This document shows, piece by piece, positions 12,805-16,246 of a DNA stretch of 64,000 nucleotides. Location: contig NZ_JAUCGR010000001.1 in the NCBI RefSeq assembly GCF_030362815.1, positions 1 through 64,000 of the forward strand. The letters run 5' to 3'. Position numbers and translations under genes: made by a program. Under the pieces are notes generated by a model. That model ran no database searches. It was not told the DNA's origin and saw only the letters and a list, made by a program, of their open reading frames with translations. The stretch's first letter is position 1, and each line of letters opens with the position of its first letter. Source of the DNA: Cellulomonas edaphi (GTDB lineage: Bacteria; Actinomycetota; Actinomycetes; Actinomycetales; Cellulomonadaceae).

Positions 12805-14202
12805 TCAGTCGTCGAGCGCGGGTCCGCACGCCGCGGCGGCGGTGGCCGCGAGGTGGTCCAGGCCGTGCACCGCGAGCAGGGGCCGCGTGTCGTCCACCAC
12901 GGCCCAGCAGCCGTCCACGATCTCGTACGACGAGCGCGCGCCCGTCCCGAGGTAGTCGCGCAGGGCGCCCACCAGCCGGTCCACGGCCTCGCTCGTGGTC
13001 CCGACGCCCACGGACGCGCGGATCGCACCCCCGGTCGCCCCGAGGTGCGCGAGGAGCGGGTGGGCGCAGAAGCGGCCGTCACGTACACCGATGCCGTGCT
13101 CCGCGGCGAGGTACGCCGCGACGAGGCCCGGGTCGTGGTCGGGCACGGTGAACGTGATCACGCCGACCGGCTCGTCCGAGTCGGGCCAGATGCGGGCCAC
13201 CTGGACGCCCTCGATCGACGACAGGCCGGCGACCAGGCGGTCGCGCAGCGCCTTCTCGTGCGCGTGCAGGGCTCCCGCCGGGAGCGCCGCGAGCTGCTCG
13301 CAGGCCTCCGCGAGGGCGATCGCGCCGATCACGTTGGGCGAGCCGGCCTCGTGGCGGGCCGGCGCGGGCTGCCAGATGGTCCGGTCGGTCCGCACGTCGC
13401 GCACCGCACCTCCCCCTGCGAGGTACGGCGTGCCGACGTCGAGCCAGTCGCGGCGGCCGACGAGCGCGCCGGCACCGAACGGCGCGTACGTCTTGTGCCC
13501 CGAGAACACGACGTAGTCCGCCCCGGTCTCGGCGAGCGAGAAGCCGCGGTGCGGCACCAGCTGCGCACCGTCGACCACGACGCGCGCCCCCTCGGCGTGC
13601 GCGATCTCGATGACGCGGTCGAGCGGCAGCGACTCGCCCGTCACGTTGGAGGCGCCCGTCACGGTGACCAGCGCGTAGTGCTGGCGTGCGAGCTCGTCGG
13701 CCAGCGACCGGAGCGTCTCGGCGACCGTGCGCGCGATGGGCAGGATGGTCGTGGAGCGCTCCTGCCCCGGGCGGGAATGCACCCAGGGCAGCAGGTTCGC
13801 GTGGTGCTCGACGTCCAGCACCAGCACGCGACCGCCGGCCGGCACCACGCCCGCGAGCAGGTTGAGGGAGTCGGTGGTGTTCCGCGTGATGATCGCGACG
13901 TCGTCGGCCCGGGCGCCGACGAAGCGCGCGATGCTCTGCCGCGACGACTCGTACAGAGCGGTGGACACCTGGGAGAGGTAGCCGGCACCGCGGTGGACGG
14001 ACGCGTACAGCGGCAGCACCTCGGAGACGCGGGCCGCCACGGCCTCGAGAGCCGGCGCGCTGGCCGCGTAGTCCAGGTTCGCGTAGACCACCTGCGAGCC
14101 GTCCACCAGGGGCACGGTGGTGCTCCCGCCGACGACGGGGATCAGCGGGCTGATCAGGTCCTCGACGCCCGCACAGGACGTCCGCTCAGCGATCGCAGTC
14201 AT
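12805..14202 (-). CDS. SAM-riboswitch-controlled cysteine desulfurase-like class V aminotransferase
   Basis: This is a 465-residue PLP enzyme of fold-type I. The PLP-binding Lys is in SGHKTYAPFG (Lys237), with a DGAQ motif ahead of it. The segment VRDGRFCAHPLL (Cys379) matches the position and context of the SufS/CsdA catalytic Cys loop (RxGxxCAxP), so cysteine desulfurase activity, releasing persulfide sulfur from cysteine, is plausible. It is not beside suf or isc genes; instead it diverges from rhodanese-metZ and is preceded by a SAM-IV riboswitch. GGAGG lies 6 bases before the ATG. A selenocysteine lyase or ergothioneine-type C-S lyase role cannot be excluded. Confidence 0.85.
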   Translation of the reverse strand: MTAIAERTSCAGVEDLISPLIPVVGGSTTVPLVDGSQVVYANLDYAASAPALEAVAARVSEVLPLYASVHRGAGYLSQVSTALYESSRQSIARFVGARADDVAIITRNTTDSLNLLAGVVPAGGRVLVLDVEHHANLLPWVHSRPGQERSTTILPIARTVAETLRSLADELARQHYALVTVTGASNVTGESLPLDRVIEIAHAEGARVVVDGAQLVPHRGFSLAETGADYVVFSGHKTYAPFGAGALVGRRDWLDVGTPYLAGGGAVRDVRTDRTIWQPAPARHEAGSPNVIGAIALAEACEQLAALPAGALHAHEKALRDRLVAGLSSIEGVQVARIWPDSDEPVGVITFTVPDHDPGLVAAYLAAEHGIGVRDGRFCAHPLLAHLGATGGAIRASVGVGTTSEAVDRLVGALRDYLGTGARSSYEIVDGCWAVVDDTRPLLAVHGLDHLAATAAAACGPALDD

Positions 14203-14239
14203 GGTGCACCTCCGGATCGAGGGAGCACCGCCCATGGGT

Positions 14240-14353
14240 GTCCCGCGCTTGCCGGGCACCAACTGGTGCCGGCCTGGTCGTCACCCGGGGCACCCCGCCG
14301 CGGAGGAGGGTTGCCGGCCAGCGAGCCGGGGCTTGACGCTGGCGCTCATGACC
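14240..14353 (-). promoter_or_regulatory. SAM-IV riboswitch
   Basis: Read on the minus strand, this 114-base stretch carries the SAM-IV signature blocks in order: GGTCATGAG, GCCAGCGTCAAGCCCCGGC, GCTGGCCGGCAACCC, GGGGTGCCCCGGGTGACGACC, a GGCACC-AGTT-GGTGCC hairpin, and the closing GCAAGCGCGGGAC. Block order and sequence agree closely with the actinomycete SAM-IV aptamers I know, including the GCAACC/GGTGC SAM-binding core shared with SAM-I. It ends 37 bases before the desulfurase ATG. A segment at 14221-14229 can pair with the GGAGG region (14203-14213), suggesting control of translation when SAM is bound. Confidence 0.9.
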
Positions 14354-14475
14354 TGACCATGAGGGTTCCGAAGAAGCGCCCTCGCTGTCAACGGCACGAC
14401 GGGCGCATCTCGCATGACGGGACGCGGTGTTCACAACGTGGAAGGCATCGGCTTCGACGCGCTAGCATCGCCGAA

Positions 14476-14579
14476 CCATCCAGAGCGGCCGAGAGATCTG
14501 GCTCGACGACGCCGCAGCAACCCCTACGGGATCAGTGCTCACGCCCGGAGCAGGGTGCTACCGCCAGGACCGATGGAGG
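14476..14579 (+). promoter_or_regulatory. SAM-I (S-box) riboswitch overlapping the Shine-Dalgarno
   Basis: The plus strand shows S-box features: a P1 pair CCATC (14476-14480) with GATGG (14572-14576), the kink-turn region CCGAGAGATCTGGCTCGACGA, a GCGG/CCGC P2 stem, then GCAACC and GGTGCTA forming the SAM-binding core. The 3' P1 strand overlaps the GGAGG Shine-Dalgarno (14575-14579) of the rhodanese gene, so SAM binding would directly hide the ribosome-binding site. This arrangement fits repression of rhodanese-metZ when SAM is plentiful. Confidence 0.88.
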
Positions 14580-14585
14580 AGAGCA

Positions 14586-14999
14586 ATGCCCTACGCAGGC
14601 GACCTGACCCCGCAGCAGGCCTGGGACCTGCTGACGACCGACGAGAGCGCGCTGCTCGTCGACGTCCGCACCGACGGCGAGTGGCGCACCATCGGCGTTC
14701 CCGACGCCTCCGAGCTCGGCGGCCGCGCCGCGTTCGTCGAGTGGGTGACGCCGGCCGGGCCCAACCCCGACTTCCTGGCCGACCTCGCGCGGGCGGGCCT
14801 CACGCCGGGCGAGGAGCGACCGGTCGTGTTCCTCTGCCGGTCCGGCGTCCGGTCCGTGGCAGCCGCGCAGGCCGCCACGGCCGCCGGGTTCGGACCGTCG
14901 TACAACGTGCTGCAGGGCTTCGAGGGCGACGTCGGTCTCGACGGCCAGCGCGGGCACTCCGGCTGGCGCGCCGACGGCCTGCCCTGGCGCGAGCTGTGA
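14586..14999 (+). CDS. Rhodanese-like sulfurtransferase linked to metZ
   Basis: This 137-residue single-domain rhodanese has the catalytic Cys84 in the loop FLCRSGVRS, which forms the persulfide-binding cradle, and an LLVDVRTDGEW segment near residue 24 typical of the fold. It would carry sulfane sulfur as a Cys persulfide. Its stop overlaps the metZ GTG (GTGA), as expected for partners made in equal amounts; a rhodanese gene immediately before metZ also occurs in mycobacteria. The SAM-I riboswitch ends at its ribosome-binding site. The donor could be the product of the divergent desulfurase gene (inference). Confidence 0.92.
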   Translation: MPYAGDLTPQQAWDLLTTDESALLVDVRTDGEWRTIGVPDASELGGRAAFVEWVTPAGPNPDFLADLARAGLTPGEERPVVFLCRSGVRSVAAAQAATAAGFGPSYNVLQGFEGDVGLDGQRGHSGWRADGLPWREL

Positions 15000-16246
15000 G
15001 CCGGGTCCCCGGACCGGCCGACTGGGACGCACGCCGCGTCGAGCGATCCGGGCTGCGGCCCGACACGCTCGCCGTGCGCGGTGGCCTGGTGCGCACCGAG
15101 TTCGACGAGATGTCCGAGGCGCTCTTCCTCACGCAGGGCTACGTCTACGGGTCCGCGGGCCAGGCCGAGGCGGCGTTCGCCGGCGACGTCGACCGCTTCC
15201 TGTACTCGCGCTACAACAACCCCACCGTGCAGACCTTCGAGGAGCGGCTCCGCCTGCTCGACGGGGCCGAGGCGGCCGTCTCGACCTCGACGGGGATGTC
15301 CGCCGTCTTCACGTCGCTGGCCGCCGTGGTCAAGCAGGGCTCCCGCATCGTCGCGGCGCGCGCGCTGTTCGGCTCGAGCGTGGTCATCTTCGACGAGCTC
15401 CTGGCCGGCTGGGGCGTGACCACGGAGTACGTCGACGGCCATGAGCTCGGGCAGTGGGAGGCCGCGCTCTCCACCCCGGCCGACGTGGTGTTCTTCGAGA
15501 CGCCGTCCAACCCGATGCAGGACCTGGTCGACATCGCCGCCGTCTCGGCGCTCGCCCGCGCGGCGGGGGCGCTCGTGATCGTCGACAACGTCTTCGCGAC
15601 CCCGGTGCTGTCGCGCCCCCTCGAGCTGGGCGCGGACATCGTCGTCTACTCGGCGACCAAGCACATCGACGGGCAGGGACGCGTGCTGGGCGGCGCCATC
15701 CTCGGCCCGGCGGACTACATCCACGGTCCGGTGCAGACCTTCGTGCGCAACACCGGCCCGTCGCTCGCGCCCTTCAACGCGTGGGTGCTGCTCAAGGGGC
15801 TCGAGACCCTGTCCCTGCGGGTCCGCCACCAGGCATCCTCCGCGCTGCGGCTGGCCCAGTGGCTCGAGGCGCGCGACGAGGTCGCGCGCGTGCGGTACTC
15901 CTACCTGCCGTCGCACCCGCAGCACGAGCTGGCGCTGCGCCAGCAGTCGGGCGGCGGCACGGTCGTGACGTTCGACCTGCGGGTGCCCGCCGACGCGACG
16001 CCCGAGGTGGCGAAGAAGACCACGTTCGCGTTCCTGGACGCGCTGCGGGTCATCGACATCTCGAACAACCTGGGCGACGCGAAGTCGATCGTGACGCACC
16101 CGGCCACGACCACGCACCGCAAGCTCGGTCCTGAGGGCCGCGCCGCGGTCGGGATCGCCGAGTCCACCGTGCGGTTCTCGGTGGGCCTCGAGGACGTCGA
16201 CGACCTGATCGACGACCTCACGCAGGCCTTCACCACGCTGGCGTAG
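14996..16246 (+). CDS. metZ: O-succinylhomoserine sulfhydrylase
   Basis: The 416-residue PLP enzyme belongs to the Cys/Met metabolism gamma-family and would form homocysteine from O-succinylhomoserine (or O-acetylhomoserine) and sulfide, bypassing cystathionine. The PLP-Lys lies in YSATKHIDGQGRV (Lys222). YSRYNNPTVQTFEERL and the FETPSNPM active-site segment are typical of MetZ. Length and sequence fit actinobacterial MetZ rather than MetB or MetY, although substrate choice among this family is hard to read from sequence. Translation is coupled to the rhodanese gene and under the upstream SAM-I riboswitch. Confidence 0.93.
   Translation: MSRVPGPADWDARRVERSGLRPDTLAVRGGLVRTEFDEMSEALFLTQGYVYGSAGQAEAAFAGDVDRFLYSRYNNPTVQTFEERLRLLDGAEAAVSTSTGMSAVFTSLAAVVKQGSRIVAARALFGSSVVIFDELLAGWGVTTEYVDGHELGQWEAALSTPADVVFFETPSNPMQDLVDIAAVSALARAAGALVIVDNVFATPVLSRPLELGADIVVYSATKHIDGQGRVLGGAILGPADYIHGPVQTFVRNTGPSLAPFNAWVLLKGLETLSLRVRHQASSALRLAQWLEARDEVARVRYSYLPSHPQHELALRQQSGGGTVVTFDLRVPADATPEVAKKTTFAFLDALRVIDISNNLGDAKSIVTHPATTTHRKLGPEGRAAVGIAESTVRFSVGLEDVDDLIDDLTQAFTTLA

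Follow-up and report, generated by a model that had tools for sequence, protein, structure and literature searches.

Among the riboswitches of the SAM clan, the SAM-I/IV class possesses the pseudoknot PK-2. In the accounts of PMC6890682, PMC7270179 and PMC2864571, SAM-I has a P4 hairpin, whereas SAM-IV is without P4 and has PK-1, PK-2 and P5; P4 is named among the features that separate SAM-I from SAM-IV in PMC7270179, where a conserved uridine is named as well. SAM-I/IV is described as having P4 and no PK-1 (PMC6890682), and as being without the internal loop of P2 (PMC2864571). For SAM-I, a ribosome-binding site within the 3' side of P1 is described in PMC2258182, where helix numbers are also retained even for stems absent in most sequences, a usage that counts against the novelty of a form without P4. 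Neither a P4-less SAM-I nor a divergent SAM-IV/SAM-I pair is described in those parts of the literature covered by our search; Weinberg 2008 on SAM-IV and Trausch 2014 on the SAM clan may mention such a variant.

The window, i.e. the whole stretch of 64,000 nucleotides of Cellulomonas edaphi DNA analysed here, was compared with 4227 Rfam families by cmscan and gave two matches above cut-off, SAM-IV and SAM (Table 1). An earlier note had placed a SAM-IV aptamer on the minus strand and a SAM-I aptamer on the plus strand of one intergenic region, about 120 bases apart, and had proposed an Infernal search. Both covariance models pass, each on the strand named, the gap between the aptamer 5' ends (14354..14472) measures 119 nt, and the cmscan matches together with the gene families bear out two Rfam classes of one clan lying divergently at the flanks of one sulfur locus. 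The genes are likewise those expected: a SufS-like class-V aminotransferase on the minus strand (top NCBIfam model SufS TIGR01979 at 280 bits, below its cut-off of 475) and rhodanese-metZ on the plus strand, where the GTG start of metZ overlaps the rhodanese stop as read from the sequence, so one leader plausibly governs both. Only the label of the plus-strand element has to be amended: RF00162 does score above its cut-off, by just 4.4 bits, yet the P4 hairpin is absent, so a plain SAM-I assignment is incomplete. Covariance-model search of the whole genome gives seven SAM-IV and two RF00162 matches. The locus is read here, with a probability of roughly 0.85, as two divergently transcribed SAM OFF switches, one a canonical SAM-IV and the other a minimal SAM-clan aptamer without P4.

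Table 1. Features of the divergent SAM-aptamer locus, in window positions
Feature	Position	Strand	Basis
Class-V aminotransferase, SufS-like	12805..14202	-	Pfam Aminotran_5 PF00266, 1.5e-82
Predicted expression platform	14203..14229	-	14229..14222 predicted to pair with Shine-Dalgarno region; read from sequence
SAM-IV aptamer (RF00634)	14353..14240	-	cmscan 110.5 bits, cut-off 38, E = 1.6e-19, model positions 1-116
Predicted promoter of SAM-IV transcript	14362..14391	-	-35 TTGACA 14391..14386; -10 AACCCT 14367..14362, by eye
Operator-like palindrome	14407..14423	between promoters	1 mismatch to GTCTCRNATNNYGRGAC
Predicted -10 TAGCAT of rhodanese-metZ transcript	14463..14468	+	TANNNT position conserved
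SAM-clan aptamer scored as SAM (RF00162), without P4	14473..14579	+	48.8 bits, cut-off 44.4, E = 3.9e-8
P1 of plus aptamer	14476-14480/14572-14576	+	alignments
P2a of plus aptamer	14485-14489/14511-14515	+	alignments
P2b of plus aptamer	14493-14495/14502-14504	+	alignments
PK-1 of plus aptamer	14498-14501/14564-14567	+	alignments
Lower P3 of plus aptamer	14516-14522/14554-14559	+	alignments
Shine-Dalgarno GGAGGAG	14575..14581	+	first two G in P1 3' strand; sequence, alignment
Rhodanese-domain protein	14586..14999	+	PF00581, 6.1e-10
metZ, O-succinylhomoserine sulfhydrylase	14996..16246	+	NF005870 695.6 bits, cut-off 618

Judged by its sequence, the minus-strand element is a full, canonical SAM-IV. 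Its alignment, running the length of the model, has a P5 hairpin after P1 and no P4 inside the junction, and PK-2 can be read as CCGCG of the P3 loop pairing with CGCGG of the tail. A Shine-Dalgarno sequence, GGAGG (14213..14209), lies upstream of the ATG at 14202, and a hairpin over it is proposed as the platform of this leader; a C-rich element ahead of the Shine-Dalgarno sequence is present, as judged by eye, in 30 relatives. Minimum-energy folding was uninformative for both leaders, the plus-leader fold leaving P1 open, and folding energies were no better than those of dinucleotide shuffles (z of +1.18 and -0.40).

In the plus-strand RNA the 18 RF00162 model positions that hold P4 are replaced by 2 nt in the Rfam alignment, and the same is true of the second RF00162 copy of the genome, which precedes metF. 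P1 comprises five pairs, and the model's three outermost P1 pairs are non-standard here. The letters of J1/2, inner P1 and the P3 core agree with the RF00162 consensus, and GA, as read from the sequence, stands at either side of the internal loop in P2, the helix in which a kink-turn is expected of SAM-I. The RNA as aligned thus keeps P1, a looped P2, P3 and PK-1, without P4 and without the PK-2/P5 module of SAM-IV, and is on these grounds a non-standard SAM-I. In the window sequence a PK-2 joining the P3 loop to bases ahead of the ATG seemed feasible, but it was unsupported over 154 P4-less RNAs, in which complementarity of P3 loop and 3' tail was 4.16 vs 4.14 in shuffled tails; the corresponding figures for 51 SAM-IV RNAs were 5.08 vs 4.23. 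Identity with SAM-I/IV was also rejected, the genome searched having no RF01725 match at E <= 0.001, and P2a and P2b being distinct helices that each show changes in both strands, so that an internal loop is present. In the metF leader, a frame of 14 codons behind the P4-less aptamer seems by eye to end overlapping the likely metF start and is a possible leader peptide.

The form extends well beyond these two copies. The 30 best RF00162 loci among 200 genomes of the family are, on reading, all without P4 and near-identical in core. When 25 of them were aligned with the window RNA and the metF copy, P4 was absent in 27/27, J3/1 being about 12 nt and ending GATGGA. A pattern scan of named genomes, which yields P4-less RNAs by construction because the pattern fixes the spacing, returned at least 118 stretches with 124 sites among the matches listed, of which 113 were counted as true, 109 by a signature regular expression and 4 by eye (L094, L114, L146 and L169); the remaining 11, i.e. 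the 15 that fail the expression minus those 4, were set aside as chance matches. An alignment of 91 RNAs was then built from the two of this genome and 89 listed pattern sites, with near-duplicates removed and five non-redundant sites omitted. In it 99.7% of structure cells are paired, and both-side changes occur in 56 cells against a shuffle mean of 7.9, a value reached in none of 500 shuffles; structures slid along the alignment fail the same test. P2a, P2b and PK-1 covary, the pseudoknot switching pairs from CG to GC (6) and from UA to CG (6). In P1 and lower P3 there is almost no variation, and the collecting pattern had set part of these helices, which therefore add little covariation and no independent support; upper P3 is not alignable across P4-less RNAs. 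Downstream, GATGG continues into AGG, AGA, AGT, AGC or GAG in 137 of 154 P4-less RNAs, and a start-codon triplet follows it at 4-20 nt in 144 of the 154.

By sequence, the P4-less form occurs in many Actinomycetes, its sites among the matches listed coming from Arthrobacter, Kocuria, Rhodococcus, Nocardia, Lentzea, Actinomyces, Georgenia and others. Among the loci listed, the first residues of genes behind other P4-less RNAs seem to resemble MetF, MetE-like and methionine-transport proteins. In Arthrobacter sp. MYb213 (L140, 3197-3668) two SAM-I RNAs of the P4-less form are arranged divergently with 273 nt between them, and P4-less RNAs with the SAM-I signature are found in a Solirubrobacterales MAG and in a MAG labelled Chloroflexi (L094, L175). 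P4 was surveyed in the phylum by reading the 30 loci with the highest scores together with 20 selected stretches, of which 13 had been chosen because their match was short; the sample is not random. Of the best-scoring loci 26 were parsed, with hairpin-forming P4 sequence by eye (weak in L195 and L198). Fifteen of the selected stretches were parsed: a long P4 segment is present in six, which belong to the same class (families f6, f8 and f9), and absent from the other nine, which come from seven families. P4-containing and P4-less forms hence both exist in the phylum, since both were read among the surveyed loci.

A dedicated covariance model of the P4-less form, R1, was made from the 91 RNAs, including both copies of this genome. 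It scores the window copy at 96.4 bits vs 48.8 for RF00162 and the metF copy at 104.5 vs 50, both copies being in its training set. RF00162 matches 145 and R1 135 of 296 genomes of the phylum, and the two models cross-react. As a classifier of P4-less RNAs R1 is not clean: for several such RNAs from other classes RF00162 gives the higher score (81.4 with RF00162 vs 64.9 with R1 in genome G235, 80.6 vs 53 in G353). Upstream of rhodanese, R1 finds a P4-less RNA in 34 of 40 sampled family genomes (L267-L306) at 65-100 bits. All 34 are also recovered by RF00162 when E values up to 0.1 are admitted; 17 of them reach its cut-off (L277 with a score equal to it) and the other 17 fall short. Should the core-only aptamer bind SAM, RF00162 in its present calibration would under-call SAM-I in this family.

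The divergent arrangement was followed through the same 200 family genomes, representing 25 genera, 166 of which encode the rhodanese at E <= 1e-25. A strict pattern that covers the ends of the two aptamers has matches in 61 of the 200 genomes, from 8 genera, and its reversed control has none in the table. By regular expression the pair stands before rhodanese in five named loci, from Cellulomonas, Cellulosimicrobium, Kineococcus, Xylanimonas and Myceligenerans. The 40 genomes sampled above were without the strict pattern and were chosen among the listed rhodanese places so as to cover genera; in about 900 nt upstream of their rhodanese genes a SAM-IV match is found in 25 (two cut by the stretch end), and in 21 SAM-IV and the P4-less RNA point away from each other, 86-188 nt apart in 20 and 318 nt in one. 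Within these stretches, 6 of the 40 loci gave no SAM-I match and 15 no SAM-IV match. Pattern and sample together place the pair in 19 of 25 genera; of the other six, g2 and g8 have SAM-I only, g25 SAM-IV only and g5 and g22 neither in the genomes sampled, and g4 was unsampled. A shared N-terminal motif marks the SAM-IV-side gene in 26 of 30 pattern loci and 3 of 23 sampled loci, and all ten motif-negative partial frames tested, from nine other genera, are Aminotran_5, as is the gene at L294. The suggestion that such divergent pairs are unusual therefore finds no support in this family. On sequence comparison the arrangement is real and conserved, the pair is ordinary for the family, and what merits further attention is the P4-less form. 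In the conserved pair, two architectures for the same ligand sit near each other within a genome, which offers a natural way of asking why neither has been lost. The same genome holds a second divergent pair (L008, G000:C2:817005-817380), SAM-IV facing SAM-IV at 156 nt, upstream of an MFS transporter and a luciferase-like monooxygenase.

Promoter-like elements lie between the aptamers, where the earlier note had placed the promoters, and do so at fixed distances. On the minus side, [TCG]GTCAA is found at index 39-42 of the intergenic string in 30/30 pattern loci, corresponding to the -35, and TTGAC lies 36-38 nt upstream of SAM-IV in 21/21 further loci against a background of 1.4% per 50 nt. 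On the plus side, TANNNT precedes CCATC, which holds the first P1 base, by 13-14 nt in 30/30 pattern loci and by 12-15 nt in 34/34 further loci, the window background being 0.1% for the four offsets. Given these fixed distances, each RNA should start within a few bases of its aptamer.

SAM as ligand, the direction of control, the translational mechanism and the start sites are what we infer for this locus. Both transcripts would start at or near the first nucleotides of their aptamers. On the minus strand SAM-IV would lower translation of the SufS-like aminotransferase through a downstream hairpin hiding the Shine-Dalgarno sequence. On the plus strand P1 itself would be the expression platform: SAM would stabilise P1, in the 3' strand of which the Shine-Dalgarno sequence begins, and translation of rhodanese and the overlapping metZ would fall. 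From their families, the aminotransferase and rhodanese could pass cysteine sulfur toward MetZ, the maker of homocysteine, and repression by SAM would suit an end product of that route.

Control could instead be exerted mainly at the level of DNA, by a putative regulator on the palindrome between the promoters, with the aptamers secondary. The palindrome, of GTCTCGCAT type, is a possible regulator site on sequence grounds, and for 6 of the 8 SAM aptamers of this genome that were displayed, GAGACG occurs on one or the other strand in the preceding 60 nt vs 5.9% of 70-nt windows, being absent upstream of the SAM-IV of the window and of L004. The motif is partly conserved, however, the TCTC site standing at the shared place in 20 of 30 pattern loci while both aptamers are intact, and a search of the genome with up to 2 mismatches gave 71 matches vs 22 for the reversed control, an enrichment from a search too loose to define a regulon. 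Predominant DNA-level control is thus considered unlikely; a palindrome-binding regulator could nevertheless act on top of the aptamers.

Two further readings concern the plus-strand RNA itself. Its missing P4, its narrow excess over the Rfam cut-off and its poor folding energy are what a decayed SAM-I that had lost SAM binding along with P4 might display, but decay is hard to reconcile with a near-identical core in 30/30 of the best RF00162 family loci, with PK-1 covariation in 91 RNAs and with tested neighbours that are metZ and metF, and it is regarded as very improbable. Equally little weight is given to a change of ligand. Close variants of SAM-I that respond to spermidine, as described in PMC10853860, provide a precedent, while the consensus letters of J1/2, inner P1 and the P3 core and the methionine genes tested as neighbours speak against it. 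The preferred reading remains a pair of SAM OFF switches, the plus-strand member without P4.

The balance tips slightly towards regarding the plus-strand RNA as a separate, widespread SAM-clan architecture that consists of just the ligand core with PK-1 and has neither P4 nor PK-2/P5; as such it would be the clan's smallest natural form, would fill the empty corner of a P4 by PK-2 scheme and would use P1 as its whole expression platform. SAM binding by the core-only aptamer would mean that nature can do without both of the clan's peripheral modules, a result with a bearing on how such modules support one binding pocket. With SAM-I (RF00162) the RNA shares the P1-P2-P3 core, the P2 internal loop and PK-1, and a Shine-Dalgarno sequence that begins in the P1 3' strand, a mechanism already described for SAM-I in PMC2258182; it differs in having J3/1 of about 12 nt in place of the P4 hairpin. 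It resembles SAM-IV (RF00634) in being without P4 and having PK-1, and differs in the absence of P5 and PK-2. With SAM-I/IV (RF01725) it has the SAM-clan core in common and is the reverse of that class, as described in PMC2864571 and PMC6890682, in its P2 internal loop, P4 and PK-1. The locus as a whole resembles the tandem SAM riboswitches of PMC9481103 in having two SAM sensors nearby; those are described within one leader, whereas the two aptamers here lie on opposite strands and would belong to two transcripts.
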